From: a virus
Length of the DNA stretch: 64,000 nt
Strand: one strand, 5' to 3'
IMG/VR virus record: IMGVR_UViG_3300042892_002840
Location: 1-64,000 of that record
Part shown: one piece after another, positions 31,592 through 50,469 of the stretch
How positions within the stretch are numbered: position 1 is the first letter of the stretch
Layout of the letters: every line of letters starts with the position of its first letter
The notes under the pieces: generated by a model
The model's database searches: none
Seen by the model: only the letters and a program-made list of their open reading frames with translations
Told to the model about the DNA's origin: nothing
Position numbers and translations under genes: made by a program

Positions 31592-32743
31592 TTACGCCTC
31601 TTCTAGTGCTTTTACTCTCGCTGTAAGTTCTTGTACCGCTTTAATTAATGGAGAAATAAACTCTTCGTATCTAAGAGCTTGTTGTCCTTCTGAATCATTT
31701 ACATCAGATATTACCCAACCACCAAAATCTTCGACGTCAGAGTCATCTACTGCTTGTTTTACCTCTTGTGCGATCAAGCCGTAGTGTGTTCTGTCCCCAT
31801 CAATCTTGGTATACTTAACTGGGTTTAATCTATTGATAAAGTCTAAACCTAAATCAGTTTCAATTATATTTTCTTTTGTTCTTGAATCAGAGATGACTGT
31901 TGCTGCAGTATTCAAATATATGTTTTTCCAGGCTCTGGTTGTTGAGCTTGTTCCTCCATCAATTGGCCCAATAATTCCCAAAGAGTATTGGTTAGTTGAA
32001 AGAGGAAACCAGTTAGACGAAACTCCAACTGAGGATGTAATAGTAGTATTTAAACCTATGATTGTTGAAATTGGATTAAGCGAAGGAGTAACTCCAGCTG
32101 GCCCCTGTGCGCCCTGTGCGCCTGCAGCGCCTGGCTCTCCTGGTGCCCCATCTTGTCCTCTTGGGATAACAAAGTTTAAAAGAACATTACTTGATGTCCC
32201 AGAGTTTGTTACATCTGCATTTGATCCAGGTGCCGAAGTAGTTGTTGAAACAACCTGAATTGTTGCCGCTGCATCTCCCTTTGCTCCTGTAGCTCCAGTA
32301 CTTCCTGTAGCACCCGTAGGTCCAACCATGGTTGTTCCCGCTGGCCATGCACCAGAAACTTTTGGGCCAAATATTGTTGTTGAAGATGTATTAATATAAA
32401 AGTCTCCATCTGAACCAACTTCTGAGCTTGGGTTAGATGTTCCGTTAAGCACACTGTTTCCGCCCATTGCTGTTCCAGATCCCCATGCTCCAGATGTTTT
32501 AGGGCCAAATATTGAGTTGCTTACTGTGTTGATGTAAAAGTCTCCATCAACCCCAGTAACGCTTGTTGGGTTTGATGTCCCGTTAAGTACGCTAGTGCCT
32601 CGCTCTCCCTGCTCACCTTGTGGGCCTGGGTTAGCCTCAATAAAGGCAGAGATATCCTCTGCAAGAACCCCTAGATCTCTAGGGACATCTGGTGAATCGG
32701 AGTAGCTGGGAAAACGCCAGCCGTTTATACCTGTTGTGCTCAT
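31592..32743 (-). CDS. Collagen-like fibre with S74 chaperone
   Basis: A 383-residue fibre. Three short Gly-X-Y collagen-like stretches are seen at 40-49, 141-156 and 196-217, the last including Gly-Ala-Pro-Gly-Glu-Pro-Gly. Between them are two copies of a module with 'LNGTSNP…DGDFYINT…IFGPK.SGAW'. Residues 285-383 are an S74 intramolecular chaperone with Ser285/Lys290 dyad and C-terminal coiled coil. Collagen-like stretches form trimers in phage fibres and prolines in the Y position are the classical substrate of prolyl 4-hydroxylases; nine such oxygenase genes start only 19 bases away. Confidence 0.85.
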   Translation of the reverse strand: MSTTGINGWRFPSYSDSPDVPRDLGVLAEDISAFIEANPGPQGEQGERGTSVLNGTSNPTSVTGVDGDFYINTVSNSIFGPKTSGAWGSGTAMGGNSVLNGTSNPSSEVGSDGDFYINTSSTTIFGPKVSGAWPAGTTMVGPTGATGSTGATGAKGDAAATIQVVSTTTSAPGSNADVTNSGTSSNVLLNFVIPRGQDGAPGEPGAAGAQGAQGPAGVTPSLNPISTIIGLNTTITSSVGVSSNWFPLSTNQYSLGIIGPIDGGTSSTTRAWKNIYLNTAATVISDSRTKENIIETDLGLDFINRLNPVKYTKIDGDRTHYGLIAQEVKQAVDDSDVEDFGGWVISDVNDSEGQQALRYEEFISPLIKAVQELTARVKALEEA

Positions 32744-32762
32744 TTTTTAATTATACCACCTA

Positions 32763-33374
32763 TTAATTTAATTTACTTCTTTTGAACATGAATGCTGGAC
32801 ACATATACTTAAACCCAGAAACAATCGGTGTTGATTCGTGATAGTAAGGCTTTACTGATGGGAACATCAAAAGGCTTCCTGGCTCTGGCTTTAATTTAAT
32901 GTTGTGATTTTTAAATATAACATCGCCACCCTCAAAATCATCATTTAGATATAGGACAATTGAAGCTGTTAATCTTGCTTCGTCATCATCATCTTCACAA
33001 TCAATGTGTGGACCCATTTGTCCACCTGGGTGATACTTTCTAATGGTTATTTCATCTGGTAAAAAACCAAGGTCTTTATCGACTGACTCAGAGTAATCAT
33101 TAATGCACATCTGTATTGCATCATGAATAGTTGATATAATCAAAAAAGATTCTTCGTCTACAGAACCATCAAGACCGCTTCTATATGCACCCGCTTTAAA
33201 CTCTCCGAACACATCATCTGGCCTAGTACTTGAAACCCATGGTTCCCAATTACTGAGAGTAGGATTGCTTGCCATCTTAAGATTAAGCTCTTCTATTTTT
33301 TTAATAAAAGCATTAGGATTTGGAATTAATTCTTTGTAATAAAAAATCCCATCTGCTAAAACTTCTTTTATCAT
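32763..33374 (-). CDS. 2OG-Fe(II) oxygenase 1 (prolyl 4-hydroxylase-like)
   Basis: A 203-residue oxygenase with a double-stranded beta-helix core. Iron ligands are His123-x-Asp125 (GPHIDCED) and His179. Lys189, ten residues after His179, is the expected 2-oxoglutarate-binding residue. The strand 'YLNDDFEGGDVIF' is the hallmark of the P4H subgroup. Family members hydroxylate proline or other residues using oxygen and 2-oxoglutarate. All active-site residues are present, so it should be functional. It directly follows (by 19 bases) the collagen-like fibre gene and overlaps the next oxygenase by 4 bases. Confidence 0.9.
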   Translation of the reverse strand: MIKEVLADGIFYYKELIPNPNAFIKKIEELNLKMASNPTLSNWEPWVSSTRPDDVFGEFKAGAYRSGLDGSVDEESFLIISTIHDAIQMCINDYSESVDKDLGFLPDEITIRKYHPGGQMGPHIDCEDDDDEARLTASIVLYLNDDFEGGDVIFKNHNIKLKPEPGSLLMFPSVKPYYHESTPIVSGFKYMCPAFMFKRSKLN

Positions 33375-34069
33375 TCTCTACCCTTTGGCATAGATGGCTT
33401 TCCTTCTGGAGTTGCCCATTTTTTATAAAGCTCTTCTTGCTCTTCTCTGACTTTCTTTAACTCTTCTGCCCATGCTTGCTTCTGTTCTTCTGTATACACA
33501 CATCTAGCATCATCCCAAAAGGATCCGATTGTGTATCTTATTCCGCCTCGAACAGTTGTGACCATGTGCTCTCTTGTATGACCGCCAGCAAAAAATGCTG
33601 CTAGGCCAATCTCTGGCTTTACGTCAATGCCATTGTCTTTAAATTTTAAATGACCACCTTCAAAATCATCATTTAAATAAATGAAGACTGCATATTTACT
33701 TTTTTCAAAAGCTGTTGGATTTCCATCATCGTCTGAGTTATCTGAGTGATAGTCAGCAAATGCACCATCAATCCATCTCTGTGCATGGTAGCTGACTTCA
33801 TTAACCTCAAACCCTAAAAGCTCTTCAGTCTTTGACTTAATTTTTTCTTTAAGTTGACCGAAGAAGTCTGGGTCAAGGCCAAATAACTTAAGCCTATCGT
33901 CTGTTGGCCAGTATCCCATGGCTTGTGATCCGTAAAAAGAGATCTCGTTCCATTTAAGAACCTTATTGTCTACAAGGTAGTCAAAGTATTTAATGACAGC
34001 TTCGCAGGTCTCTTTATCTATAAAATTTTCTACAAGAAAAAATTCATCTCTAATAGGCCTGTCTGTCAT
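33371..34069 (-). CDS. 2OG-Fe(II) oxygenase 2
   Basis: A 232-residue oxygenase with His108-x-Asp110 (YHSDNSDDDGNP), His168 and Arg178 for 2-oxoglutarate; 'YLNDDFEGGHLKF' marks the P4H-like subgroup. The C-terminal 45 residues are a charged helix (EEQKQAWAEELKKVREEQEE) absent from most paralogues and may mediate interactions. It overlaps its neighbours by 4 bases each. It is complete and probably active; the substrate is unknown. Confidence 0.9.
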   Translation of the reverse strand: MTDRPIRDEFFLVENFIDKETCEAVIKYFDYLVDNKVLKWNEISFYGSQAMGYWPTDDRLKLFGLDPDFFGQLKEKIKSKTEELLGFEVNEVSYHAQRWIDGAFADYHSDNSDDDGNPTAFEKSKYAVFIYLNDDFEGGHLKFKDNGIDVKPEIGLAAFFAGGHTREHMVTTVRGGIRYTIGSFWDDARCVYTEEQKQAWAEELKKVREEQEELYKKWATPEGKPSMPKGRE

Positions 34070-34854
34070 GATTCATACCCTAAATGTTTTCTTTCTGAGT
34101 ATTTCATGTTTTTTGGATTTTCTTTTTCAATTCTATCCCACTCCATCTTAGCCCATCTGTATGCCCCAATGTGTTTTTGGTTAGCTATCCATTCTGGGGT
34201 TCCATCAAAGATATGCTGAATAAAATTACGAATAAAGAATTTTTCTCCATTTTTAATTACTCTAACTCCATGGAAATATGGTTCTGTTGAAGGGAATACA
34301 AGGATGTCTCCCGCCTTTGGCTTGTATGGATAGTATACGTCATCAACAATAAACTCAATATCTCCGCCCTCGTAGTCATCGTTTATGTATGTTGTGCAAG
34401 TCAGCAAAAACTTTGGACCTGGCATATCTCTTTCAGAAATAATATAATCCGTGTGGTATTGCATTGTCATTTCATTTCGCATAGTATCAATGTTTGAATT
34501 ATATTTTGAAAACGAAGATGTCATCAACTTTGAGGTTGGTGGCATTTGAACATTGTATCTTTCTACGTAGTCTTCAATTGCAGTATTGTATGCCTCGTAA
34601 ACTCTATCAGACAAATGCTTTTCTTCATCATACATAGGGCCAAACTCTCTAGGCTCATTGTCGTCGTGTTTTTGCTGTGAGTATGTACCAAAAATAGACC
34701 ATTGGTCCCAAGTTCTTAAGTAGTACTTTCCTTCTGATGTGCGCTCAGATCTCTTCATTATGTCATAAAGATTATCTGCGTCAGGTAGTAATCCCTGATA
34801 AATTCTTACATTTGGCAGTAACTCAAATGATGTGTACTCTTGCTTACTTGTCAT
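34066..34854 (-). CDS. 2OG-Fe(II) oxygenase 3
   Basis: A 262-residue oxygenase with His134-x-Asp136 (QYHTDY), His195 and Lys205, and the strand 'YINDDYEGGDIEF'. It resembles the two oxygenases at 60166 and 61040 in its N-terminal layout (an opening 'NVRIYQGLLPD.DNLYDIMKRSE', a Trp-rich 'TWDQWSIFG' segment, and a basic C-terminal tail), suggesting a subfamily within the window. It overlaps both neighbours by 4-11 bases. Confidence 0.9.
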   Translation of the reverse strand: MTSKQEYTSFELLPNVRIYQGLLPDADNLYDIMKRSERTSEGKYYLRTWDQWSIFGTYSQQKHDDNEPREFGPMYDEEKHLSDRVYEAYNTAIEDYVERYNVQMPPTSKLMTSSFSKYNSNIDTMRNEMTMQYHTDYIISERDMPGPKFLLTCTTYINDDYEGGDIEFIVDDVYYPYKPKAGDILVFPSTEPYFHGVRVIKNGEKFFIRNFIQHIFDGTPEWIANQKHIGAYRWAKMEWDRIEKENPKNMKYSERKHLGYES

Positions 34855-35521
34855 CCTCTAATCCCAACTTTGTTATTGTCCAGAAAAATGGGGCAGTATA
34901 TCTAGTCCCACTTGTAACCTTTGTCACTCCATGAATATAGTTCTTGTCCCCAGGGAAAAAGTACGCTGCTCTTGGTTTAGGTTTAAATTTAATATTTTGA
35001 AGTGGAAAGAATAGCTCTCCGCCTTCATAGTCGTCGTTTAAATAAAATACAGTTCCTAAGTCATACCATGGAAATTCATTTGGTGTTCCTGCGTCTGGGC
35101 CTTCGTGAAGCTCTTTATCTGCATGTGGAAACTGCATTGTGCCTACAGGCCACCTTACAATAGCTGCATCAGTCGGCTTTACTTCAACCTGAAACTTTTC
35201 TCTAATATAAGGTGTCATTCTTTCAATTACACGATCTAAAATTGCTACAACTTCGCCTGTTGGATCTGCTTTCAAAAGAGTATTCATTGTTGCTACTCTG
35301 TCTTCCCAAACCCTGTGGTCATATATAATGCTTCCATTTTCATTCCATTGGGACTCTGTTACATCCCATACAGTGTTGCTTTTTGCAAAAGTAAGAAGAT
35401 AGTCTTGCTCTTCTGGTGTCACCATGTCCTCTAGCTCGACAACATTATCTGGTGAATTGCCAAAGTATCCAGAAGGAGTGATAGTTTCTCTTGCGTATCG
35501 TGCTCTTTTAGTATATTCCAT
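34844..35521 (-). CDS. 2OG-Fe(II) oxygenase 4
   Basis: A 225-residue oxygenase with His133-x-Asp135 (FPHADKELHEG), His197 and Arg207, and 'YLNDDYEGGELFF'. The N-terminal 35 residues are Tyr/Arg-rich and unlike the paralogues. All catalytic residues are present. It lies 7 bases after the first member of the unrecognised interleaved family (35529-36257) and overlaps oxygenase 3 by 11 bases. Confidence 0.9.
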   Translation of the reverse strand: MEYTKRARYARETITPSGYFGNSPDNVVELEDMVTPEEQDYLLTFAKSNTVWDVTESQWNENGSIIYDHRVWEDRVATMNTLLKADPTGEVVAILDRVIERMTPYIREKFQVEVKPTDAAIVRWPVGTMQFPHADKELHEGPDAGTPNEFPWYDLGTVFYLNDDYEGGELFFPLQNIKFKPKPRAAYFFPGDKNYIHGVTKVTSGTRYTAPFFWTITKLGLEDDK

Positions 35522-35528
35522 TTTTTAC

Positions 35529-36257
35529 CTATTCATATTTCTTTAGAGATCGAACGGTTTGCTTGTATGCACCGCCGTCTTTTGTTCTAAACTTTTTTGC
35601 CTGAGCATTGTGTCTTTCTTGCAAAGAAACAAGGTCATGAAATTTTGGCTCCATTTTCCACTCTTCTCTTTTATATGGAATTAGCTGAAGGTAAGGAGTT
35701 CCTTTTGGAACCTTACCCTCAAAGTCATTCCTTAAGAAAAACGGTATAAGACCTGGAGTATTCATCTTATCATTATCTATTATAGCAGAGGTGGTTATAA
35801 ACGGTAAATCAAATCTGTTGATTGGATTTACATATAAAACGCTATATCCATCTGGAACCTCTGGTGCCCAATTAGGATACCAGTGGAAGTGTCTGTCTAG
35901 GTATCCGTGTGGAACTGGAAACTCATTCATAGGGGCTCTTGACCCAACAAAATCTTCGTATCCTGGTTCTGGTATTGCTATCATCTCACCATTTGGCAGT
36001 TTGCTAAAAACAATATCGCATGGGGTTACATAAAAATATCCAGTGATAAATATATCAAGTAAACCTGGGCAAGACTTAAAGCTTCTTACTAGTCCACCTT
36101 CAGGGTTGGGCCAGTACTCTCCTGTCTGCTTGTTAAGCTCAAACTTGTCTGCTTTTTTAAACCATTCTGGAGTTAAATTTCTTGCTGGCTTTGGCTGATA
36201 TTCTTCGCTTATAATGTTGTACAGCCTATTAGAATGAAATTTTATTTTATTGCTCAT
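35529..36257 (-). CDS. Unrecognised family, copy 1 (interleaved with oxygenases)
   Basis: A 242-residue protein that shares a pattern with the genes at 36247 and 39473. Each has a mid-protein 'GYS.LY..P.NRFDLPF' or equivalent, a 'I.NDKM..PG..PFFL' segment and a terminal 'I/VPKGTPY.Q.IP.K' motif. It also has 'KSCPGLLDIFITGYFYVTPCDI'. The second copy at 39473 is closest to it (about 243 residues, same motifs). The beta-rich motif order would suit a barrel-like fold, but I cannot name the family. Always placed between oxygenases, so it probably works with them, perhaps as a modifying enzyme or partner. No catalytic residues can be assigned. Confidence 0.75.
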   Translation of the reverse strand: MSNKIKFHSNRLYNIISEEYQPKPARNLTPEWFKKADKFELNKQTGEYWPNPEGGLVRSFKSCPGLLDIFITGYFYVTPCDIVFSKLPNGEMIAIPEPGYEDFVGSRAPMNEFPVPHGYLDRHFHWYPNWAPEVPDGYSVLYVNPINRFDLPFITTSAIIDNDKMNTPGLIPFFLRNDFEGKVPKGTPYLQLIPYKREEWKMEPKFHDLVSLQERHNAQAKKFRTKDGGAYKQTVRSLKKYE

Positions 36258-36945
36258 TTGTTTTTAACCTAATTACCTTTAGCTCGTGTTCACCTATTTT
36301 GTTGCCTAGATGATCTGTTGCATTCCTATAAAAGCCAGCCCACTTACCCTGCTGATTAATTCTTTCTGCTGTCTCTCCATATTCTCTTCCATCAAATTGA
36401 GCACCGACGTAATCCTTACCGTCGTGTAAATTAATTTCAGAATTATTTAATTCAGACAAAGTAATTGGGAGTATGGCAGCTACTGGTGTATTTGCTGGTA
36501 TTGTTATAATCTTTCCTGGGGAAGTTATTCTCCAAACAACTGGAATCTCGCCTGAAAAAAATGATGTTGTTAATAGCGTAGTAAATGCTTGAGCTCCATC
36601 TATAAATTGATTTGGAACTGGCATAATAAGAGTTGTTGTCTCCAAGTTAGTCTTAAAGGTTAGCCCTGTCCTAAAGCTTATTGTTCCATTTGCTCTATTT
36701 GTGTGACAATAATTTTCTCCAGAAAGAACCTTTACATGATCTGGGCTGCTATTAGAAATGCCATCCCATATAAAAGAAATATCTTCTGGAAAAGAAATTC
36801 CCCATCCTAGTTGATTTGCAAGGCTTACTGGAAAACAATTGTAGGCGTGTCTATCTACAGTATTTTCCATCCAGTCTCTCTTTACAGAAAGCTGGGATAT
36901 CTCCCCTGGATTTTTATCAGCCTTATAAACCTCTATTTTATGCAT
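36247..36945 (-). CDS. Unrecognised family, divergent copy 2
   Basis: A 232-residue protein with the same general layout as 35529 and 39473: 'DRHAYNCFPVSLANQLGWGISFPEDISFIWDG' in the N-terminal part (split here), a beta-rich middle containing 'TTLIMPVPNQFIDGAQAFTTL', and the motif 'IITIPANTPVAAILPI' that matches the 'VPKGTPYLQLIPY' motif of the others. It is clearly the most divergent of the three. It overlaps copy 1 by 11 bases and oxygenase 5 by 8. Proteins with this opening occur beside oxygenases in other marine phages as far as I recall, but I give no family number. Confidence 0.7.
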   Translation of the reverse strand: MHKIEVYKADKNPGEISQLSVKRDWMENTVDRHAYNCFPVSLANQLGWGISFPEDISFIWDGISNSSPDHVKVLSGENYCHTNRANGTISFRTGLTFKTNLETTTLIMPVPNQFIDGAQAFTTLLTTSFFSGEIPVVWRITSPGKIITIPANTPVAAILPITLSELNNSEINLHDGKDYVGAQFDGREYGETAERINQQGKWAGFYRNATDHLGNKIGEHELKVIRLKTNEQ

Positions 36946-37636
36946 AGCCCTCAGTGTATCTCTTTTCTATTTCCCTATAGTCTGGAGTATGCGGAGCCTC
37001 TAAATAGTCTAGCATTGTTACTATTGAATATTTTGTGCCGCTTGTTACTGGAAGCGAAGCGTGAGAAAACAGATAGCTTGAAGGGAAAAGGTACAGGTCT
37101 CCTGCTTTAGGCTTAATCTTTAAATTAAATTTATCAAAGTAAAGTTCGCCTCCTTCATAGTCATCATTAATATATCCTACCGATGACAGCACACATATAT
37201 AAGAGTATCCATGATCTGAGTGTACTTGAAAATGCTGGCCTGGCCCATACTTTACAAAATTAAATGATTCCCAGTACTTGAGTGGAGCAACATTAAAGCG
37301 CTGTCTATAATCTTCAACAGGACCTATTTGCACATCTCTTGAGTCTTCCCAAATTTTTTCTAGCTTTATCTGATCTGGGCTCTTGTTGGAATCATCTGGA
37401 TTGTTTTTCTTAACTTTAAAATCAAAAGCATCTCTATACTTAAGGTCGTTGTTAGCGTATCCCGTTGTAGCCTGCTTCCATTTGTATGTGGAGTGAGGGG
37501 AATCAGAATATCCAACCCCTTCTGCATTAGGGTCTGAAGATAGGCATTCTTCTAACCTATTAATTAGATCCATTTCTTTTGTAAATACATTTCTGTAAAC
37601 AAGCACACCTGGTGCTAAAATTTCTGGCTGGTTCAT
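36938..37636 (-). CDS. 2OG-Fe(II) oxygenase 5
   Basis: A 232-residue oxygenase with His139-x-Asp141 (QVHSDHG), His182 and Lys192, and 'YINDDYEGGELYF'. It is closely similar to oxygenase 9 (40204-40911): both share an N-terminal 'EILAPGVLVYRN' type opening, 'YKWKQATTGY' and 'HFQ.H.DHG.SY', indicating a recent duplication. It is the first gene behind the internal promoter at 37655-37683. Confidence 0.9.
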   Translation of the reverse strand: MNQPEILAPGVLVYRNVFTKEMDLINRLEECLSSDPNAEGVGYSDSPHSTYKWKQATTGYANNDLKYRDAFDFKVKKNNPDDSNKSPDQIKLEKIWEDSRDVQIGPVEDYRQRFNVAPLKYWESFNFVKYGPGQHFQVHSDHGYSYICVLSSVGYINDDYEGGELYFDKFNLKIKPKAGDLYLFPSSYLFSHASLPVTSGTKYSIVTMLDYLEAPHTPDYREIEKRYTEGYA

Positions 37637-37654
37637 TTTGTCTCCCTTATCTAT

Positions 37655-37683
37655 ATTATATATAATTCTTGCAGTTTAGTCAA
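37655..37683 (-). promoter_or_regulatory. Internal promoter of the oxygenase cluster
   Basis: On the minus strand: -35 TTGACT (37678-37683), a 17-base spacer and a perfect -10 TATAAT (37655-37660), within the last bases of oxygenase 6 and the 39-base gap after it. It would drive oxygenases 5 to 1 and the collagen-like fibre. Confidence 0.6.
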
Positions 37684-38437
37684 TCAACTTATCTTTTATA
37701 AATCTACCTCTTTTTTTATCTATAGCAACAAGACTTGACTTATATAAGTCTTTTGTCCAAAAGCTTGTGTGAGTGTATCTGTTGCCAGAAGTTATCTGTC
37801 TGATACCGTGCATTGTATTTATGTCACCACTGAATATTAAAAGCATTCCAGCTTTTGGCTTAATTGAAAACTCATTATGTTGAGGAAAGAAAAGCTCTCC
37901 TCCTTCAAAATCATCATTAAGATACAGCATTGAGGTGTAAAGTTTATTTGTAAATAGCCTTTTATATTCAGTTATATTTTTTTCTTCAAAGAAATATTTG
38001 CATTGCTCTGGGACTAAAGATAAATCAATAGTGCTTAGGTCAAAGTTTGGATCGATAAAGTCAACATGTGGCTCTTGAAGATGTGGGTAATACCATTTAA
38101 CTATTTCCCATAACTCGCTGTATATTTCAAAATCAGGCTTAAAGAAATCTTTTACTTGCTCTTCCATTCTTTCTTGAATTGGAACAACAAATTTAAACAG
38201 TTCTTTGTAGTTTTCCATGCCCTCTCTGTAAAGCTCATTTATCTCTATTCTACGATTATCCCAGTGCTCTGCTGCAGACTTATAGTCTTCTTCTGTCTTA
38301 AAAGTTTGTCTTTGTCTATTATGCTTAGACCATAATCCAGATTCTTCTGAATATTTAATTAGCCAGTCGCATTCTTCCTTGCTTATAAAATTCTCAACTA
38401 TTCTACAATGTGGTGATTTTAGGTCTTTTATATTCAT
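37676..38437 (-). CDS. 2OG-Fe(II) oxygenase 6
   Basis: A 253-residue oxygenase with His124-x-Asp126 (PHVDFIDP), His210 and Arg220, and 'YLNDDFEGGELFF'. A larger insert lies between the first strand pair (residues 128-170) than in the paralogues. Start overlaps the next upstream gene by 4 bases. All catalytic residues are present. Confidence 0.9.
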   Translation of the reverse strand: MNIKDLKSPHCRIVENFISKEECDWLIKYSEESGLWSKHNRQRQTFKTEEDYKSAAEHWDNRRIEINELYREGMENYKELFKFVVPIQERMEEQVKDFFKPDFEIYSELWEIVKWYYPHLQEPHVDFIDPNFDLSTIDLSLVPEQCKYFFEEKNITEYKRLFTNKLYTSMLYLNDDFEGGELFFPQHNEFSIKPKAGMLLIFSGDINTMHGIRQITSGNRYTHTSFWTKDLYKSSLVAIDKKRGRFIKDKLID

Positions 38438-39000
38438 CTCAACCAGCTTGCTATTGCGTATCTGGTTCCAGAGATTACTGGATTAACCTTATGCCTATAT
38501 GCATATGAAGAAGGAAACATTATAAAATCTCCTGCCTGTGGCTTATACTTTACATCAAATGAAGGGAACTCTATTTCCCCTCCCTCATAGTTATCATTTA
38601 AATAAAATACAGTTGATGCCCTTCTAAAAGTTGCGCCTGCGTCATCTATGTGTAGATCAAATTTGCCGCCGACATCGTACTTTAGTATCTTGTAGGGCTG
38701 ATGAACCTTAAATTTAATATAATGGTCTTCTTCATAATCTTTCTCTATTTCAGAGAATGTTTTATTGAAAAGGCTTGAAAAAAACTTAACATAGTCTTCG
38801 TCTTCTTCCCTTGAGTAAGCTGTAATATCTATTGATTTTGTATCTCTGTAAGAACTGTCTAGTGATTTGTTTCCGTCATTAGCATCAACAACATACTCTG
38901 ATAGCCATTCGGCATTTGACAAAGATTCTATTTCTTTAAAAATTTTTGAGCTATCTATCTTGTAGACAACTATTCCTGGCGCTAGTGTACTTTTAATCAC
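38434..39000 (-). CDS. 2OG-Fe(II) oxygenase 7 (shortest intact copy)
   Basis: At 188 residues this is the shortest intact oxygenase of the set. It has His117-x-Asp119 (LHIDDAG), His170 and Arg180, and 'YLNDNYEGGEIEF'. It ends directly after the core (…ASWLR), so it is nearly a minimal P4H-like domain. It overlaps its neighbours by 4 bases each. Confidence 0.9.
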   Translation of the reverse strand: MIKSTLAPGIVVYKIDSSKIFKEIESLSNAEWLSEYVVDANDGNKSLDSSYRDTKSIDITAYSREEDEDYVKFFSSLFNKTFSEIEKDYEEDHYIKFKVHQPYKILKYDVGGKFDLHIDDAGATFRRASTVFYLNDNYEGGEIEFPSFDVKYKPQAGDFIMFPSSYAYRHKVNPVISGTRYAIASWLR

Positions 39001-39473
39001 ATAAACATCCTGTAGTAGGGCCTAATAAACCATTTTGGAGTAATAGGATTTACATGCATCTTCCATATTATTGCAAATGCATAGGTGTCGTTATTAAAAT
39101 TATTTAAATATGATTCTCCATTTTTAATAACAAATGTGCTGTTTTCATATTCACCATTTAAATATGTTAGAGTCTGACAAAATGTGTCTTCGTCAAACTT
39201 AGCATTCTCTATATTTCCATTAATTTTTAAAATTTGATAATAAAATGGAAACACTTTTTCTGAAACATTATGGTTGTCGTATATTATTTGCTGAACAGAT
39301 AGCCCAGTCTCTTCGACAATTCTAGCTGAGTGCCTATGTATTTTATACATCATCTCGCCATCAATTCTATTTTCTGTCCACAGCTTTGGCTGTTTAGAAA
39401 GGTTCCATTGATCTAATGATATTAGTACTTCTTTGTAAGGGTCAAGCAAAGAAGATGGTATGTGTGTGTACAT
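38997..39473 (-). CDS. Degenerate oxygenase paralogue lacking the His-x-Asp motif
   Basis: A 158-residue protein that aligns to the oxygenase cores by its late segment: 'TLTYLNGEYENSTFVIKNG' corresponds to 'VLYLNDDFEGGDVIFKNH' in oxygenase 1, and 'KMHVNPITPKWFIRPYYR' corresponds to the distal-His and Arg region. His140 is kept. Where the paralogues have His-x-Asp, 14-16 residues before the YLN strand, this protein has 'NGNIENAKFDED' with no His. It should not bind iron normally, so it may be a non-catalytic partner or a decaying copy. The open frame and tight coupling argue for the former. Confidence 0.7.
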   Translation of the reverse strand: MYTHIPSSLLDPYKEVLISLDQWNLSKQPKLWTENRIDGEMMYKIHRHSARIVEETGLSVQQIIYDNHNVSEKVFPFYYQILKINGNIENAKFDEDTFCQTLTYLNGEYENSTFVIKNGESYLNNFNNDTYAFAIIWKMHVNPITPKWFIRPYYRMFM

Positions 39474-40204
39474 TACTTATACTCTCTTCTTTCCCAAAAC
39501 TTATCCTTATATACTCCGCCATCTGGCTTTCTAAATATCTTTCTTGTTTTTATAATTCTATCATATATATCGCCAGCCTTGTCTATCTGCAATTCTGATT
39601 CCCAATTTTCTCTTTTGAATGGTATTATTTGTGCATATGGGGTGCCAGCTGGTATTACTCCTAGCCAACCTTCAATTAAAAAAAATGGCAAAGATCCTGG
39701 CATAGAAACTTTATCTGTATCTATAATCCCAGATGTGTTGATAAACGGTAAATCAAATCTATTCATTGGCGTTATATACAGAGAGCTATAGCCGTCTGGA
39801 GTTTTAATTCCCCAGTCAGACATCCAAGCAAAGGATTCTTTTCTATATCCTAATGGCGTGGGAAATCCAGAGAGCGGATGCCTTATTTCACAAAAGTCTT
39901 CATATTTTGAATCTTCTATTTTTACATCTATTTCTAAGTTTTCATTAATAAAAAATTCAATATCACATGGTGTTTTTAATACATATCCTGTTGTAAATGC
40001 ATCAAGTAAAGCTGGACAACCTTTCCATGTTGCCATCTTTCCACCATCTGAGTCTAAAACATATTCATTTTTTTCATTTTTAAAAAATCTATCTGCAATA
40101 CTATACCATTTTGGAATAAATTTAGATGTTGGCATTGGGCTGCTTATGCTTGACTTATTCAGCCAATGCCTATTAGCAATAAATGTTATTAGGCTTGCTT
40201 TCAT
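39473..40204 (-). CDS. Unrecognised family, copy 3
   Basis: A 243-residue paralogue of the 35529 protein, sharing 'GCPALLDAFTTGYVLKTPCDI', 'GYSSLYITPMNRFDLPF', 'DTDKVSMPGSLPFFL' and 'IPAGTPYAQIIPFKRENW', and a Lys/Arg-rich C-terminal end. The two are full-length homologues, indicating duplication within the cluster. It overlaps both neighbours by a single base or so (shared stop/start), showing translational coupling to an oxygenase on each side. Function unknown. Confidence 0.75.
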   Translation of the reverse strand: MKASLITFIANRHWLNKSSISSPMPTSKFIPKWYSIADRFFKNEKNEYVLDSDGGKMATWKGCPALLDAFTTGYVLKTPCDIEFFINENLEIDVKIEDSKYEDFCEIRHPLSGFPTPLGYRKESFAWMSDWGIKTPDGYSSLYITPMNRFDLPFINTSGIIDTDKVSMPGSLPFFLIEGWLGVIPAGTPYAQIIPFKRENWESELQIDKAGDIYDRIIKTRKIFRKPDGGVYKDKFWERREYK

Positions 40205-40911
40205 TACTGTGTCTTAAGAAATGAATTTGTTTTAGCCCCTTGAGAACTAACAACATGGCCTCTGTCTGTATAATCAAGCATTGTAACTACTGAATACTTG
40301 GTTCCGCTTGTTACTGGCATGGCTCTATGTGGGTACATAAAATTAGATGGGAATACAACAAGGTCCCCCTCTGAAGGATTATACATTATGTCTTGAAGCC
40401 TAAAATATAATTCCCCTCCATCATAATCGTCGTTAATGTATCCTACAAGAGATACAGTGGATGTGTAAGAAAAACCATGGTCCGTGTGCTCTTGGAAATG
40501 CTGACCCTCATGATATCTGATAAAATTCATTACTTCCCAGTACTGTAACTCGCTTATATTGTACATTAAACAATAATCTTTTACGGCTTCAGACATTACG
40601 TCGTAGCATTGTTGCCACATATCTTTTAAAATTTCAGTTCCTTCATCTGTATTATGAAGGTCATCTTTTCTAAATTTAAAGTCAACACAGTCTCTGTAGT
40701 CTGGCTTTTTAAATCCGTATCCTACTGTTGCTTCTCTCCATTTATATGGGTTAAGCGTTGATCCTAAAACAGACTCTATTTTATTTATAATTCCTATATC
40801 TTTTTTTAAAAGATTTTTATAAACAACTATACCTGGAGCGAGAATTTCTTTCTCGCTCCAGGTTTTAGTTATAGAGTTAGGATCAATTAATTTAGGTCCT
40901 ATTGTTGACAA
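40204..40911 (-). CDS. 2OG-Fe(II) oxygenase 9 (paralogue of oxygenase 5)
   Basis: A 235-residue oxygenase with His142-x-Asp144 (EHTDHGFSY), His185 and Lys195, and 'YINDDYDGGELYF'. Very similar to oxygenase 5. It follows the first Hint-domain fibre gene by 23 bases, the nearest oxygenase to the PPGFF repeats. I number it 9 by position; number 8 is the degenerate copy. All catalytic residues are present. Confidence 0.9.
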   Translation of the reverse strand: MSTIGPKLIDPNSITKTWSEKEILAPGIVVYKNLLKKDIGIINKIESVLGSTLNPYKWREATVGYGFKKPDYRDCVDFKFRKDDLHNTDEGTEILKDMWQQCYDVMSEAVKDYCLMYNISELQYWEVMNFIRYHEGQHFQEHTDHGFSYTSTVSLVGYINDDYDGGELYFRLQDIMYNPSEGDLVVFPSNFMYPHRAMPVTSGTKYSVVTMLDYTDRGHVVSSQGAKTNSFLKTQ

Positions 40912-40934: not shown

Positions 40935-42254
40935 TTACTTATTATGTATAAGTAATCCGCTGACAAAGAACCAGTCGTATGGTTCGCAAGAAAGTTGATA
41001 AACGCTTGTTGGTGCTTCATTTGAATACTTAATGTCTTCTATAGGGACTTCAGTCATTAGACCGTTTGAGTCTACAACAATTAAGTTTTCTCCAATTTCA
41101 GCATAGTAAGATTCTTTAATCTTATACTGTCCGTCAGATGTTTTAACGAATATAGGCTGAGTAAATGTCATTCTGATGTCAGTGTTTCCATTAAAGTACA
41201 TAATATCTGACTCTTGAGTTTCAATTATTTCAGTAATTGTTGTTTCAACAAATTGTCCTAAAGATAATGCATCTGAATTCCATGTCGAGAACTGATATGA
41301 ATCTGGTGTAGTTGGATCAATTTGATTGATCACTACAGACTTAATCTTGTCTCCGACCTGTAAGAACTTAGCTGGTACTTGACCATCCATTGTATCTACA
41401 AGTGTGTTTTCTTCTACACAAGGAGGTCCAAACCAAGGGATGAAGTAAAAGCTTGGAGGTGCAAAGAACCCTGGGGGCGAGAAGAACCCTGGAGGCGAGA
41501 AGAACCCTGGAGGTGCGAAGAACCCTGGAGGTGCGAAGAACCCTGGGGGCGAAAAGAACCCTGGAGGTGCAAAGAACCCTGGGGGCGAGAAGAACCCTGG
41601 AGGTGCGAAGAACCCTGGGGGCGAAAAGAACCCTGGAGGGCTAAAGAATGAAGGTGGTGAGAAGAAGGTTGTAATGCTATTTGATGGAGATGATGTTTCA
41701 CCATTACCGTTAGCATTAGCTGCATAGACTGTATATGTCTGTGCGGTTCCTTGTTCTTGAGATACAGATACTGATGTAGATGCTGTGCTTCCAGATTTTC
41801 CGTCTGATGATGCCCAGTAGTATGCTGTTATTGCTGATCCACCATTTGCTGGTGCTGACCAAGACACTACGTCTGTTCCTGCAGATGATGATGATGCTGA
41901 AGGAGCACCAACCTGTGCTGGAACCGTTGTAGGTGTTGTGGCGTTTGATGTGGTTGTAAGACCATTACCAACTGCATTAGATGGAGTTATTGTGAATGTG
42001 TATGATGTTCCACCAGCTAGTCCTGTGAAGGAAAACGAGGTAGAAGATGTTGTTTTTGTTGTTGTTGCTGGACTTGACACTATTGTATATAGTGTTGCTG
42101 CTGGTGAATCGGATGGAAGCGTCCAAGCTAGGTTCGCTGAACCGTTATTGAACGCCCCTCCGTTAACACCAGTGGCAGTAAATCCAGTAACAGCCTTTGG
42201 CTCTAGGAAGTTATCCTGAGCTGAAGACTTAATACCGATTTTCTTATTTGCCAT
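40935..42254 (-). CDS. Fibronectin/PPGFF-repeat protein with C-terminal Hint domain (A)
   Basis: A 439-residue virion-type protein. Residues about 18-108 and 112-200 are two fibronectin type III domains. Residues 200-270 are ten PPGFF units separated by Ser or Ala, flanked by PPSFF and PPSFY. A Hint (hedgehog/intein) domain spans 279-439: Cys279 follows 'WFGPP', the QVGDKI strand is at 299-304, and the protein ends His437-Asn438-Lys439. The block-B 'T-x-x-H' is TFTQP here, with Gln instead of His. Hint domains cleave or ligate at their N-terminal Cys. The end one residue after His-Asn means no C-extein exists. Probably a surface fibre that is processed. Confidence 0.88.
   Translation of the reverse strand: MANKKIGIKSSAQDNFLEPKAVTGFTATGVNGGAFNNGSANLAWTLPSDSPAATLYTIVSSPATTTKTTSSTSFSFTGLAGGTSYTFTITPSNAVGNGLTTTSNATTPTTVPAQVGAPSASSSSAGTDVVSWSAPANGGSAITAYYWASSDGKSGSTASTSVSVSQEQGTAQTYTVYAANANGNGETSSPSNSITTFFSPPSFFSPPGFFSPPGFFAPPGFFSPPGFFAPPGFFSPPGFFAPPGFFAPPGFFSPPGFFSPPGFFAPPSFYFIPWFGPPCVEENTLVDTMDGQVPAKFLQVGDKIKSVVINQIDPTTPDSYQFSTWNSDALSLGQFVETTITEIIETQESDIMYFNGNTDIRMTFTQPIFVKTSDGQYKIKESYYAEIGENLIVVDSNGLMTEVPIEDIKYSNEAPTSVYQLSCEPYDWFFVSGLLIHNK
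41445..41657 (-). repeat. 18-bp tandem repeat coding for PPGFF units (A)
   Basis: About twelve 18-bp units coding for P-P-G-F-F-S/A, of which ten have Gly and the two flanking ones Ser. Unit sequences differ mainly at the Ser/Ala codon and third positions. Such repeats can change copy number by slippage; the partner gene at 47848 has five Gly units instead of ten. Confidence 0.85.
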
Positions 42255-42280
42255 TTTTATCTCCTATTTTTTTAATCTAA

Positions 42281-44511: not shown

Positions 44512-44543
44512 TTAAGTTCACTTATCCCCTAATTGTTTATTGT

Positions 44544-44566
44544 GGGGGATTTTTAAGGAATCCCCC
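44544..44566 (-). terminator. Hairpin between fibre genes
   Basis: A perfect 8-bp stem GGGGGATT-N7-AATCCCCC. On the minus strand it is not followed by a T run, so it may be a processing or partial terminator signal rather than a full intrinsic terminator. Confidence 0.4.
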
Positions 44567-44581
44567 GAAACCTTTATTTAA

Positions 44582-46009: not shown

Positions 46010-46036
46010 TTATATGACTCCTCTTGTTGCTTTTTA

Positions 46037-46588
46037 TTATGCCTTGATTGCTGTTCTAATAAATCTTACTGATATAGAACCGCTCACAGGGGTGACTCTT
46101 AGATTAATTATACCTGAAGTTTCTTCAAATGTATAAGTAAATAAATTATTATCTGTTGTGGAAATAATGTTAGTCTCTGAGACTAGAACATTTGTTCCAT
46201 CATGTGTCGTTGAGATGTCAGAAGAATAAACATCTGCACCCTTTGTTACCTGTATTTTATAAAATACAGACTTCCAAACACTTTTTGCAAAAGAATCAAT
46301 TGTTGTTTGATTCTCAATTCCATTTACCTCTAGGTCATTGTTACCGTCAAGTCCTAGCAGCTCTTCTACGTATCCTGAGTTGTTAGTAAGCCCATCTACT
46401 GCTGTAGATAGATTGTTTATCTTGTATGTTAATGAATTTGAGTCTGCTGAGTTTGTAACTCCTACTACAGTTTCCAAAGCCTCAATAGCGTCGTTTGCAT
46501 TGGCATGCTGAGCAGCATGTCCTACTAGCTCGTCTGTTGAATTTGGATTTGTAAGGTTGTCCTTACTTGTTGGGAAAACTGTTGCCAT
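46037..46588 (-). CDS. Fibre-type protein with small trimer-like region
   Basis: A 183-residue protein with an N-terminal helical region containing a 'NDAIEALETVVGV' segment seen in several phage fibre and collar proteins, then a Asn/Leu-rich middle and a beta-rich C-terminal half ending in a short Ile/Arg strand. The C-terminal half is similar in outline to that of the 44582 fibre. Likely a fibre component. Confidence 0.65.
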   Translation of the reverse strand: MATVFPTSKDNLTNPNSTDELVGHAAQHANANDAIEALETVVGVTNSADSNSLTYKINNLSTAVDGLTNNSGYVEELLGLDGNNDLEVNGIENQTTIDSFAKSVWKSVFYKIQVTKGADVYSSDISTTHDGTNVLVSETNIISTTDNNLFTYTFEETSGIINLRVTPVSGSISVRFIRTAIKA

Positions 46589-46644
46589 TTATATAAGCCT
46601 CCTGGCGGTGGTGCATGTTATCTAATTATATCTTATATATTTTT

Positions 46645-47829
46645 TTAAGACGGAATAAAACCAGAAGGCAGTCCTTTTATTACACGCTCTTCTAATTCAC
46701 CAGTTGAGAAGTGTATGCCAGAATACCTTTCAAAATCTTCAAGTGTTCTCTCTGCAAATAAGCCATTTACTGGATCAATCTTGTTTTTAACTATAATCTG
46801 CTGAAAGTAAGACTTCGATGCATTATGTCTTGGATAAAATTCTTCTGGAAAGTCGTCCCAAAACAAGACTCTGTCTGGTCTACCGTATCTATGATACACG
46901 AATACTTTTCTTGGAGTTACTAGATTGTAACCCGCTGTAAAAAACCTAAGTGCCATAAGTGGCTCTTCCTCAGTAAATGTAACTTCATCTACAAATGGCA
47001 CAGATTCAATTACTGTTTTTTCAGTAAAGAAAAAGTGGCCAGACAAATAGGGGGAAAGCACATTTGTTTCTGGGTTAGTGTATTGTGGGGTAAACTGAGG
47101 AACAAGAGTAGACTTAAAATGTGCAATGTTTGACTCTGACATAAAGAATGTTGGATTAGCCTCACATTCCTGAAGTTCGTCATTTCCATTTTCATCTACT
47201 GTATATGGTGGTACATATGCTGTAAATACAAGTTCATCAAAGTTTTGCTTGGCATAGTTATACTCTTTAATTAATTCTGTATCCCACCCAGATATTGATC
47301 TCATGTGGGAGTCCATGTTAAGATAGTAGTCTTGGTTGTTATAAAACTTGTGAGAATTCTTCCTAGCAGGCTGGCAACCAATAATTGATCCAGGATTTAA
47401 TGAATCAACTGACACATTTTTTCTTTTTGATGCTTCTGCTATATTAAAATCTATGTCATCATCCTGAATAGTTAATCCAAAATACACTCTATCTGGAAAC
47501 TCAGCATTCTTTAAGAAGTTATCTACTGTGGTCCAAATCTCTGGGTCTTTATATGATGGAATATTGATAAATATAGTAGCTTCATTCTGTATCATAAGCA
47601 ATTCCATTTCTTTTTCTGTTACTGGATCTTCTCCGCCCCATTTATGAATAGGGCATTCTGCTAACTGCAATTTGGTTTTGAATTTCATAAAACAACCACA
47701 CTTTTTACATTGCTTGGTTGTATTAATAAACTCTGGGCATGCCTTGCATATCTCATATCTTGATTTAGCAAGATCTGGAGTGGCATATTGACTATTAGGG
47801 TTTAATAGGTCCCATGGCTTTACTGACAT
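46645..47829 (-). CDS. Glycosyltransferase resembling the hydroxyproline GlcNAc-transferase family
   Basis: A 394-residue protein. Residues 28-59 are a Cys-rich zinc-binding module (C28, C31, C41, C44, C46, C59). From about 86 comes a GT-A glycosyltransferase domain with the pattern I know from the GlcNAc family (Pfam GlcNAc, CAZy GT60): 'IFINIPSYKDPEIWTTVDNFL', 'RVYFGLTIQDDD', and 'YYLNMDSHMRSISGWD' with a metal-binding Asp173-Ser-His175. Known eukaryotic members add GlcNAc to hydroxyproline on Skp1. It lies between fibre genes and the second Hint-domain protein. The family call is from memory of its motifs; the substrate is inferred. Confidence 0.8.
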   Translation of the reverse strand: MSVKPWDLLNPNSQYATPDLAKSRYEICKACPEFINTTKQCKKCGCFMKFKTKLQLAECPIHKWGGEDPVTEKEMELLMIQNEATIFINIPSYKDPEIWTTVDNFLKNAEFPDRVYFGLTIQDDDIDFNIAEASKRKNVSVDSLNPGSIIGCQPARKNSHKFYNNQDYYLNMDSHMRSISGWDTELIKEYNYAKQNFDELVFTAYVPPYTVDENGNDELQECEANPTFFMSESNIAHFKSTLVPQFTPQYTNPETNVLSPYLSGHFFFTEKTVIESVPFVDEVTFTEEEPLMALRFFTAGYNLVTPRKVFVYHRYGRPDRVLFWDDFPEEFYPRHNASKSYFQQIIVKNKIDPVNGLFAERTLEDFERYSGIHFSTGELEERVIKGLPSGFIPS

Positions 47830-47847
47830 ATATATATGATATCATTT

Positions 47848-50469
47848 TTACTTGTTGTGGACAAGCATGCCATTTACAAAGAACCAGTCATATGGTTCAC
47901 AAGAGAACTGATATACATTTACAGTCTCGTTTGCCATAAACTCTATCTTATTAACAATAGTTTCATTAATTGTTCCATCAGAATTAACAGTTATTAAATA
48001 TTCTCCACGCTCAACATAATATGCCTCTTTAATCTTATATTTACCGTCTAGGGTTTTAACAAAAACTGGCTGAGTATATGTCATTCTTGTATCAACATCA
48101 TCGTTAAAATATAATATGTCAGATTCTTGTGTTTCAATAATATCTGTTATTGTTGTTTCAACAAATTCATTAACGGATAAGTTGTCTGAAGACCATGTTG
48201 AGAATTGATAAGAGTCTGGTGTGGACGCATCTATTTCATCAATTACTATAGACTTAATCTTGTCTCCGACCTGTAAGAACTTAGCTGGTACTTGACCATC
48301 CATTGTATCTACAAGTGTGTTTTCTTCTACACAAGGAGGTCCAAACCAAGGGATGAATACAAAGCTTGGGGGTGCGAAGAACCCTGGAGGAGAAAAGAAT
48401 CCTGGAGGAGAAAAGAACCCTGGAGGTGCGAAGAACCCTGGAGGGCTAAAGAACCCTGGAGGTGCAAAGAAACTTGGAGGGCCAAATGCTAAAGCTCCTC
48501 CACAGCATGACCAGCCTGAAGGAACATTGTATACATCAGATCCACCAAGACGTGAATAGCCAAGCTCTGAACATGTGTAAGAAGTTGGATTTGTTATTGT
48601 TCCAGGACAATCTTGTTTTGTTGGTGTAGGAGTTGGTGTAGGAGTTGGTGTAGGAGTTGCTGTAGGATTTGGTGGTGTTGGGGTTGCAGTTGGTGTTGGG
48701 GTAGGTGTCGGAGTTGGTGTAGGAAGCGCTCCTCCACAGCATGACCAGCCGCTTGGTACATTGTAAGCATCAGATCCGCCAAGTCTTGTATATCCTAATT
48801 CTGAACATGTAGAAGACACTGGATTGGTTATAGTTCCAGGGCAGTCTTGTAAAGGTGTTGGGGTGGGCGTTGGAGTTGGAGTAGGTGTTGGAGTTGGGGT
48901 TGCAGTTGGTGTTGGGGTAACTGTTGGATCACAAGCAGCAGCTGCAGCATCCCGTAATGCAGCCGCATAGGTTGTTCTATAAACTGTTTTTACTGTTCCG
49001 TTAACGTTATAAACCGATGTATCTGCAGGAATTCCTGTTGTATTTGTAGTTGGTCCAGAAGCTGAAGGTGCAGACACATATTCTCCGCTAGTACCCTTGC
49101 ATGTAGATGTTCCAGTGTAGTAAACATATGTTGTTGGGGTTGCAGTTGGTGTTGGGGTAGGTGTAATTGTTGGATCACAAGCGGAGTTTCCTGCATCCAC
49201 AAGGGCGGCAGAATAAGTCGTTCTATAAACTGTTTTAATGCTTACTGTTCCATCAAGTACCTGTGTATCTTGTGGAAGAGTGTTGCCTTCTGCAACAAAT
49301 GGGCCAGTAACTGAAGGAGATGCGGAATAAACTCCACTGAATCCATTACATCTAGAGACTCCAGTGTAATAGCTTACTCCAGTTAAAGTAGTGAATTCGA
49401 CAGTATTCGATGTCCAGGATGTCTCATCAAAATTTGGTGTTGTTCCAGATGCTACAACTTTATACCTATATGTTTCTCCAGCTGTTAGGAATGTTATTGG
49501 AATTGTATTAGTTGTTCCTGAGTCATTTCCTGCTGGCAAAGAAGATCCATCTGGGTTTACCCAGTAAAGCTGCCAGCCATTTTGAGTAAAGTTAGATGTA
49601 GACCATGAAAGTGTTGCTGTGGTTTGTCCGATATCTGAAACTGATAAAACTACAGTTGGATCAAATGGTTTCATATCTGGGACAACATATTCTTTATAGG
49701 CGCCTTGAAGAGGCTGTCCTGTTGCTTGAAAATAAGGGTTGTTTGTGTTTTGTGAAGCAATATAAACTAACAATGGACCATCTGCTTTACCTAAAAGACT
49801 TTCAAATGGAGCTATTGATGAAACTAAAGATGTGGTTTCATAAGCAGTTTGATTTTCTACTGAATCAACAATCTTTTCGTTTTGAATTCCTGCTCCTACA
49901 AAATAAATTTTAAATTTATTTGCACTTGGAACCCTTAACCATCTTAAATTAACTTTGCTATTTTCTGGAACAGTAGCATCTATATATATTACATCTTGTG
50001 GCTTTACTAAATAGTCATTGAGTCCAGCTAAAAGGTTATTGCCATTTACGTAAACTGGTTCGCTATCACCAAACTCATTTGTTGCCACAACTTTACACCT
50101 AAGAACATATCCTACCATTTGCTTATCAATATAAGAAGAATTGTTATTTGAACCAAAATCAATCCATGTTGCATTTGTATAATCATTTGAAATCAAGTAT
50201 GCAGCTTTTTGCCAAGTATATCTGTAAGAGGTTGGTGTATTTGTCCATGTGCCGCTTGTAATTGTTACAAACTGATCTGCCATTCGATTATTATTTTGCC
50301 AATTAAAAACTGGAGATTCTGTAAGAACTGGGACAGCAGCCCCAAACTTTTTCCATTCAGTTCCATCGAAAACATAAGATGCCTTTGAATCAACCCATGA
50401 AGAACCGTCATGTATCTTGATTTTCTTTAATGGCTTCCATTCGGATCCATCAAATATATTTAAAGGCAT
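47848..50469 (-). CDS. Large Thr-Pro/PPGFF-repeat protein with C-terminal Hint domain (B)
   Basis: An 873-residue protein. The N-terminal 45 residues have three copies of 'DGS.W…'; an Ig/fibronectin-like region follows (to about 365). Then two related Cys-containing modules ('YYTG…C…YRTTY…AAC'), two more short Cys modules ('DCPG…TCSELGY…SCCGG'), separated by long Thr-Pro runs near residues 515-540 and 581-620. Five PPGFF units lie at 670-699. The Hint domain is 713-873 with Cys713, QVGDKI, TYTQP (Gln for the block-B His) and final His-Asn-Lys. The Hint and PPGFF parts are shared with 40935. Probably a long processed surface fibre. Confidence 0.88.
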   Translation of the reverse strand: MPLNIFDGSEWKPLKKIKIHDGSSWVDSKASYVFDGTEWKKFGAAVPVLTESPVFNWQNNNRMADQFVTITSGTWTNTPTSYRYTWQKAAYLISNDYTNATWIDFGSNNNSSYIDKQMVGYVLRCKVVATNEFGDSEPVYVNGNNLLAGLNDYLVKPQDVIYIDATVPENSKVNLRWLRVPSANKFKIYFVGAGIQNEKIVDSVENQTAYETTSLVSSIAPFESLLGKADGPLLVYIASQNTNNPYFQATGQPLQGAYKEYVVPDMKPFDPTVVLSVSDIGQTTATLSWSTSNFTQNGWQLYWVNPDGSSLPAGNDSGTTNTIPITFLTAGETYRYKVVASGTTPNFDETSWTSNTVEFTTLTGVSYYTGVSRCNGFSGVYSASPSVTGPFVAEGNTLPQDTQVLDGTVSIKTVYRTTYSAALVDAGNSACDPTITPTPTPTATPTTYVYYTGTSTCKGTSGEYVSAPSASGPTTNTTGIPADTSVYNVNGTVKTVYRTTYAAALRDAAAAACDPTVTPTPTATPTPTPTPTPTPTPTPLQDCPGTITNPVSSTCSELGYTRLGGSDAYNVPSGWSCCGGALPTPTPTPTPTPTATPTPPNPTATPTPTPTPTPTPTKQDCPGTITNPTSYTCSELGYSRLGGSDVYNVPSGWSCCGGALAFGPPSFFAPPGFFSPPGFFAPPGFFSPPGFFSPPGFFAPPSFVFIPWFGPPCVEENTLVDTMDGQVPAKFLQVGDKIKSIVIDEIDASTPDSYQFSTWSSDNLSVNEFVETTITDIIETQESDILYFNDDVDTRMTYTQPVFVKTLDGKYKIKEAYYVERGEYLITVNSDGTINETIVNKIEFMANETVNVYQFSCEPYDWFFVNGMLVHNK
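48358..48480 (-). repeat. 18-bp tandem repeat coding for PPGFF units (B)
   Basis: Seven 18-bp units coding for PP(G/S)FF with Ser/Ala spacers, five of them PPGFF. It has the same unit as 41445-41657 and fewer copies. The block directly 5' in the Hint gene (48251-48357) is identical to 41338-41444. Confidence 0.85.

Follow-up and report, generated by a model that had tools for sequence, protein, structure and literature searches.

Oxygenase arrays resembling prolyl hydroxylases covary with the proline content of neighbouring repeat fibres in uncultured aquatic phages

What do the 2-oxoglutarate (2OG)-Fe(II) oxygenases that are so abundant in aquatic phages act on? To our knowledge, no candidate substrate has been put forward before for the class considered here. 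The question is raised by a window of 64,000 nucleotides, positions 1 to 64,000 of the IMG/VR record IMGVR_UViG_3300042892_002840 (an uncultured virus, 97,029 bases in whole), in which the gene of a repeat-containing fibre (40935-42254) is followed by an array of eight oxygenase genes (32763-40911). The original prediction, made from the letters of the window, had joined these oxygenases, a GlcNAc-transferase-like enzyme of family GT60 and several repeat proteins into one pathway of proline hydroxylation and glycosylation on the phage's own fibres. Across related loci, the number of oxygenases was found to follow the proline content of the fibre repeat. The array thus probably encodes protein prolyl hydroxylases whose substrate is the repeat of fibre 40935-42254, which also carries a Hint domain, with the GT60 enzyme acting separately on threonine.

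The identity of the oxygenases was explored using profile searches and structure prediction. All eight intact open reading frames (ORFs) named in the original prediction exceed the Pfam cut-off for PF13640 (32.5 to 64.6 bits against 27), and the HxD motif, the distal His and the 2OG-binding Arg/Lys are legible in each of them. Residues H139, D141 and H192 are invariant across 60 aligned relatives, the eight window oxygenases included, and the pattern HxD/E...H...R/K fits 640 of 670 near-full-length homologues (95%). One oxygenase of the eight, 36938-37636, was modelled with AlphaFold2 from a 60-row alignment. A Foldseek comparison of this model with the PDB placed the vCPH of virus PBCV-1 first (E 5e-10), followed by Dictyostelium PHD, Pseudomonas putida prolyl 4-hydroxylase (P4H), PHD2 and algal P4H, and nearly all of the top 50 matches are prolyl hydroxylases. 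This supports a prolyl-hydroxylase-like fold for the array oxygenases, in line with what had been predicted.

The fibre that precedes the array combines fn3 domains, a Pro-Pro-Gly-Phe-Phe repeat and a C-terminal Hint domain (Table 1). The repeats recognized in the original prediction are real as regards the PPGFF units (12 in this fibre and 6 in a second one) and the Thr-Pro runs of the second fibre; the Gly-X-Y repeats of 31592-32743 proved to be minor: only three stretches, each 4 to 8 triplets long, with a Pfam Collagen score of 19.2 bits, under the cut-off of 27.2. The prolines of the repeat array are encoded by a variety of synonymous codons (ccc, cct and cca), and the gene set of the window was found again at 36-91% identity in dozens of viral contigs, which together rule out a chance origin. 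The carriers of the gene family are uncultured aquatic phages. A scan of viral contigs for the repeat-Hint combination gave 75 loci, and nearly all those that are well flanked have a short fn3-repeat-Hint protein followed by 5 to 11 oxygenase genes, with 1 to 3 DUF6065-like genes interspersed. The repeat type varies from phage to phage ([SA]PPGFF, PFFPPFFPPYFP), and more distant Hint relatives have repeats such as FSPFGVFG, GFTPFGFTPFG, GAFGAFSAFG and GHYGGFYHGF.

This variety allowed oxygenase number to be compared with repeat composition. In a set of 113 main fibres, freed of near-duplicates and each with 8.5 kb or more of sequence downstream, oxygenases were counted within 9 kb downstream of the fibre. 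Proline-free repeats (GAFGAF, GHYGGF) have no oxygenase in any of 28 loci, the 64 loci with single-proline repeats have 0, 1 or 2 (4 in one locus), and 18 of 21 loci with Pro-Pro repeats have 5 to 10, with a Spearman coefficient of 0.69 between oxygenase number and repeat proline. DUF6065 is kept in all 28 proline-free loci; the module is therefore there, neither absent nor truncated, and only the oxygenases are missing. The association persists among fibres with a Ser1-type Hint domain alone, where an oxygenase accompanies 0 of 27 proline-free and 27 of 38 proline-containing fibres (p 8e-10, loci counted as independent). A Pfam count over whole records, independent of our own hidden Markov model, found any PF13640 match in 14 of 30 proline-free records (28 hits in total), 38 of 47 single-proline records and 29 of 29 Pro-Pro records, the last mostly with 5 to 14 hits each. 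Indeed, in one genome that holds two fibres (L039/L154), one oxygenase adjoins the fibre with a VTPAVTP-plus-GAF repeat and none adjoins the proline-free GAF fibre.

The arrangement within the Pro-Pro class points in the same direction. The first oxygenase lies 19 to 84 bases from the fibre in most loci, and the array is retained where the repeat shifts from PPGFF to PFFPPFF and where the Hint domain has diverged to about 25% identity with that of the window. In the oxygenase tree, the enzymes of single-proline loci (phages with FTPFG and FSPFG repeats) fall mostly in separate clades, which indicates recruitment more than once. Pairwise contrasts on the Hint tree, taken over the main-fibre set, all ran in the predicted direction or were tied: proline with any oxygenase gave 2.8 pairs in the same direction, 0 opposite and 3.2 ties, and proline was unrelated to DUF6065 in the same set. 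An earlier, looser set that included second fibres had about half a pair in the opposite direction.

Several observations weigh against prolyl hydroxylation of the fibre. The arrays of PPGFF and FFPP phages have orthologous oxygenases, so that the array has effectively one origin; with the single-proline sets included, the association appears to have about three origins, which makes its phylogenetic significance borderline. The p-values given for loci treat them as independent when they are related, and the Hint-tree contrasts are few (Pro-Pro with at least 4 oxygenases: 4.8 pairs in the predicted direction, 0 against it and 2.2 tied, p ~0.06). The intermediate part of the dose response is the weaker one, since the oxygenases of single-proline loci are a median of 4.8 kb distant, and 18 of these 64 loci lack an oxygenase. 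Three loci classed as Pro-Pro (L047, L304 and L313) have 0 or 1. Moreover, the limits on distance and the division into three repeat classes were chosen after inspection of the data, and relatives carry other oxygenases that do not adjoin proline-rich fibres, including some elsewhere in proline-free genomes. The cultured Synechococcus phage S-SCSM1 likewise has oxygenases elsewhere than at its tail fibres, several of them among replication genes, which points to further uses of such enzymes. Because PHD2 is heavily represented in the PDB, the fold ranking is skewed and counts as support, not as proof.

Other explanations were considered in the light of these data. The oxygenases might act on something other than a fibre, such as host translation factors or the ribosome, small molecules or nucleic acid, and hitch-hike in the tail module; their bacterial relatives include the EF-Tu P4H and PiuC, cyanophage oxygenases often stand beside replication genes, and reprogramming of host metabolism has been proposed by the authors of a cyanophage study (PMC9602691). 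Such a substrate fails to predict that oxygenases are absent at proline-free fibres despite the retention of DUF6065, or that 5 to 10 paralogues occur only beside Pro-Pro repeats, and we consider it unlikely. A common history without any functional link, in which arrays and Pro-Pro repeats were co-inherited in one lineage and proline-free fibres in another, would account for the orthology of the array oxygenases across PPGFF and FFPP phages and for the small number of independent contrasts. It is improbable given that the association persists inside one Hint class, that the array stays while the Hint domains of Pro-Pro fibres become very diverse, and that single-proline repeats are accompanied by different oxygenase sets. 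Targets within the fibres other than the repeat prolines are conceivable too, namely aromatic residues or glycines in the repeat, or the Gly-X-Y fibre 31592-32743, as the repeats are rich in Phe and Tyr and about half of the arrays have a Gly-X-Y gene in their vicinity. This we regard as very improbable, because aromatic, Gly-rich repeats that are free of proline occur without oxygenases, and because 9 of 18 Pro-Pro loci with arrays of at least 4 oxygenases have no Gly-X-Y gene within 10 kb. On the latter count, Gly-X-Y was rejected as the array partner, and the collagen-like substrate that had originally been suggested is not supported.

The relation between the oxygenases and the GT60 enzyme bears on a further alternative. 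In Dictyostelium, Skp1 is modified by a 2OG prolyl hydroxylase and then by a GT60 GlcNAc-transferase, and the same sequence of reactions was envisaged for the window, where the oxygenases would make hydroxyproline on PPGFF or Thr-Pro repeats and the GT60 enzyme would add GlcNAc there. Both enzyme families are present: 46645-47829, taken at first sight for a GlcNAc-transferase-like enzyme, passes the profile check against PF11397 (GlcNAc) with 141 bits and E 7e-41 at a cut-off of 21, so that the mismatch named in the original prediction as a refutation did not occur. It has a DSH motif, kept in the form D[S/T/A]H by 89 of 90 near-full-length homologues from phages. A PDB sequence search with this protein gave nothing useful. 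In several relatives (e.g., L007, L008, L017, L023, L028 and L031), an oxygenase also separates the Thr-rich fibre from GT60. In the clade of the window, however, GT60 comes directly after the Thr-Pro fibre with no oxygenase between them, the pair stands apart from the oxygenase array in the window itself, and GT60 is missing nearby in many Pro-Pro array loci. For 37 of 46 non-redundant phage GT60 genes with upstream room, a Thr-rich protein stretch is encoded within 4.5 kb, an enrichment that is moderate given a background of 15% per ORF and the several ORFs that 4.5 kb spans. Proline-poor T-runs and TTQATTQ repeats occur among the neighbouring fibres, and the presence of an oxygenase near Thr-rich fibres associated with GT60 showed no link with proline (7/16 proline-poor versus 7/21 proline-containing fibres, Fisher p 0.73). 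In T. cruzi mucins and for Dictyostelium Gnt2, alpha-GlcNAc is transferred by the GT60 family to Thr of mucin-like proteins (PMC3769586). Because GT60 follows Thr-rich fibres regardless of proline and its relatives act on Thr, in our reading it O-glycosylates the second fibre in a separate process of mucin type; the Skp1-type sequence, for which we see little likelihood, ranks lower. What is supported of the single pathway first envisaged is the covariation of oxygenase number with the proline of the phage's own fibres, above all Pro-Pro, a relation which that idea implies and which exceeds simple nearness of the genes; the succession of hydroxylase and GT60 is not supported.

From the fold match and from the way in which oxygenase number follows repeat proline, we infer that the array hydroxylates fibre prolines. 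In the mechanism proposed, the array oxygenases would use Fe(II) and 2OG to hydroxylate the prolines of the repeat of 40935-42254, and the several paralogues would most likely differ in the proline contexts that they prefer, the consecutive residues of a Pro-Pro pair among these. The degenerate paralogue 38997-39473, which has lost its metal ligands, may serve as a binding partner, and the DUF6065 proteins, with their predicted beta-clip fold, may contribute to the fibre in a proline-independent manner. At FGPP|C, the C-terminus of the fibre would probably be cleaved or transferred by the Hint domain. The GT60 enzyme would separately glycosylate threonines of the Thr-Pro-rich fibre 47848-50469 in mucin style, both fibres being presumed parts of the virion. 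A more elaborate scheme, which we put forward as speculation that is more likely wrong than right, is a combinatorial finishing of fibres, in which hydroxylases each tuned to one proline context, a dead paralogue, DUF6065 proteins and a Hint domain that cleaves itself or forms cross-links would yield an adhesive fibre resembling extensin or mussel-foot protein, in parallel with a fibre bearing mucin-type O-GlcNAc. The literature searched held no such virion chemistry for any bacterial virus.

The Hint assignment rests on a family profile of 43 relatives, which matched the bacterial intein-like (BIL) domain 2LWY (E 3e-9) and several inteins in the PDB; a single-sequence Pfam search gave a weak match below the cut-off. 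In the main fibre, Cys1 comes right after ...FGPP and the block-B His is replaced by Gln. Both PPGFF proteins of the window have Cys1 and end in His-Asn-Lys (HNK) in place of the Cys, Ser or Thr that inteins have at position +1 of the C-extein, so that no splicing of the usual kind is expected; to judge from these residues, the fibre C-terminus may instead be cleaved or transferred. Like BIL and other Hint domains, the phage domain has Cys1 and a terminal His-Asn in addition to the profile match. It differs from them in its C-terminal position on a fibre, in the block-B Gln found in many members, in the lack of a splicing partner residue, in the Pro at position -1 of the window proteins and in the Ser1, without His-Asn, of proline-free relatives. 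As a separate observation, the Hint domain of proline-free relatives (e.g., L167 and L209) has Ser1 and lacks the terminal His-Asn, and Pro-Pro fibres mostly have Cys1 with His-Asn; the tail chemistry of Hint may differ between the fibre classes.

The degenerate paralogue, of 158 to 175 amino acids, is conserved in many related arrays of PPGFF and FFPP phages alike, which makes it a candidate pseudoenzyme. DUF6065/phrog_7084 genes occur alongside aromatic repeat fibres whether the repeat contains proline or lacks it. That DUF6065 is a further oxygenase was ruled out by the dUTPase-like beta-clip fold of the AlphaFold2 model in a Foldseek comparison. The first 66 residues of the GT60 protein form a Cys-rich, zinc-ribbon-like N-terminus (phrog_13558), a domain that occurs in many phages on GT60 and on other proteins, often directly after a Thr-rich fibre. 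These features (the Hint domains, the zinc-ribbon-like N-terminus, the three DUF6065-like genes and the degenerate ninth oxygenase) and the proline-free controls had escaped the first reading of the window.

Some parallels come from eukaryotes and their viruses. PBCV-1 vCPH, the best fold match of the modelled oxygenase, is also a virus-encoded prolyl hydroxylase; PBCV-1 is, however, a virus of a eukaryote with one characterized enzyme, whereas the phages described here have 5 to 10 paralogues beside a candidate substrate. The amino acid analysis of PBCV-1 particles, as far as it is cited in a chlorovirus review, is without hydroxyproline (PMC7019647). The extensin- and collagen-type P4Hs of plants and algae are likewise 2OG hydroxylases that act on Pro-rich structural repeats, and the fold matches of the 36938-37636 model include the algal enzyme with (Ser-Pro)5, PDB 3GZE. 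In contrast to these systems, the phage repeat is Pro-Pro-aromatic instead of Gly-X-Y or Ser-Pro, there is no secretory pathway, and the substrate is fused to Hint. The GT60 protein resembles TcOGNT of T. cruzi, Gnt2 of Dictyostelium and Skp1 Gnt1 in its PF11397 score above cut-off, its DSH motif and its Thr-rich, mucin-like neighbours; unlike them, it is a phage-encoded candidate transferase fused to a Cys-rich zinc-ribbon-like domain. Literature searches found no precedent for hydroxyproline in phage fibres.

Among cultured phages, S-SCSM1, which has 24 2OG-Fe(II) oxygenase genes of the same superfamily as the array, offers the nearest parallel. Two tail-fibre genes that stand side by side are immediately preceded by four oxygenase genes and followed by three, and one of the two, ORF245 (L366:4955-6220), a short tail fibre, has a long Pro/Arg/aromatic repeat (FRQPRNFRQPR / RAPFNFRAPVPF). 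We take this as a lead and not as a rule, since the tail fibres that adjoin oxygenases in S-H9-1 have no comparable repeat and the rule fails in some cyanophages. In the S-SCSM1 paper, the oxygenase genes were ascribed to host reprogramming and their viral functions called unstudied (PMC9602691). Through the covariation with proline, one class of aquatic-phage oxygenases gains a specific candidate substrate, which opens the question to mass spectrometry, with cultured S-SCSM1 as a test case. If the proposal is true, phages apply to their own fibres both hydroxylation and, separately, glycosylation, a protein chemistry usually associated with the extracellular matrix of animals and plants.

Table 1. 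Features of the fibre, oxygenase and glycosyltransferase region of the window
Feature	Coordinates	Strand	Evidence or remark
Main fibre: fn3 domains + (S/A)PPGFF x12 + C-terminal Hint	40935..42254	(-)	fn3 2.8e-9; 75-locus viral family
12 hexapeptides [S/A]PPGFF	41445..41660	(-)	repeat count in main fibre
Hint (intein-like) domain	40938..41420	(-)	alignment; PDB profile search 2LWY E 3e-9, gp41-1 intein 2e-5
2OG oxygenase 1	40204..40911	(-)	PF13640 53.6 bits; 23 bases after main fibre gene
DUF6065/phrog_7084-like, dUTPase-like beta-clip fold (predicted)	39473..40204	(-)	profile; AlphaFold2 pLDDT 95.9; Foldseek
Degenerate oxygenase paralogue	38997..39473	(-)	no HxD/His; no Pfam match; weakly matches true oxygenases, 3e-5
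2OG oxygenase 2	38434..39000	(-)	PF13640 64.6 bits; PDB matches PiuC, bacterial P4H
2OG oxygenase 3	37676..38437	(-)	PF13640 36.2 bits
2OG oxygenase 4 (modelled)	36938..37636	(-)	PF13640 50.3 bits; AlphaFold2 pLDDT 92; Foldseek best PBCV-1 collagen prolyl hydroxylase
DUF6065 protein	36247..36945	(-)	PF19541 95.8 bits
DUF6065-like (phrog_7084)	35529..36257	(-)	phrog_7084 3.7e-28
2OG oxygenase 5	34844..35521	(-)	PF13640 32.5 bits
2OG oxygenase 6	34066..34854	(-)	PF13640 36.4 bits
2OG oxygenase 7	33371..34069	(-)	PF13640 38.9 bits
2OG oxygenase 8, array end	32763..33374	(-)	PF13640 44 bits
Fibre with short Gly-X-Y runs + S74 chaperone	31592..32743	(-)	array neighbour, not constant partner
Zinc-ribbon-like domain + GT60 (PF11397) alpha-GlcNAc-transferase-like	46645..47829	(-)	PF11397 141 bits; directly after second fibre
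Second fibre: Thr-Pro runs + (S/A)PPGFF x6 + Hint	47848..50469	(-)	fn3 match below cut-off; proposed GT60 substrate
Hint domain of second fibre	47851-48333	(-)	within 47848..50469
6 PPGFF units, second fibre	48376-48483	(-)	repeat count
Thr-Pro repeat runs, second fibre	48619..49164	(-)	repeat reading

The PPGFF protein had no match among 50,697 cultured-phage records, and a scan over 84,980 bacterial and archaeal genomes likewise turned up no relative. The portal protein (27794-29386) shares 54-58% identity with those of Streptomyces phages, of which the one examined, Muntaha, belongs to the Stanwilliamsviridae, and this identity suggests an actinobacterial host. Away from the array, three more ORFs (58488-59327, 60166-61047 and 61040-61963) are weakly similar to 2OG oxygenases, the last of them scoring just under the PF13640 cut-off. 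Two further fibres, 42281-44095 and 50483-52210, carry the Major tropism determinant N-terminal domain (PF18454), which is known from diversity-generating systems.

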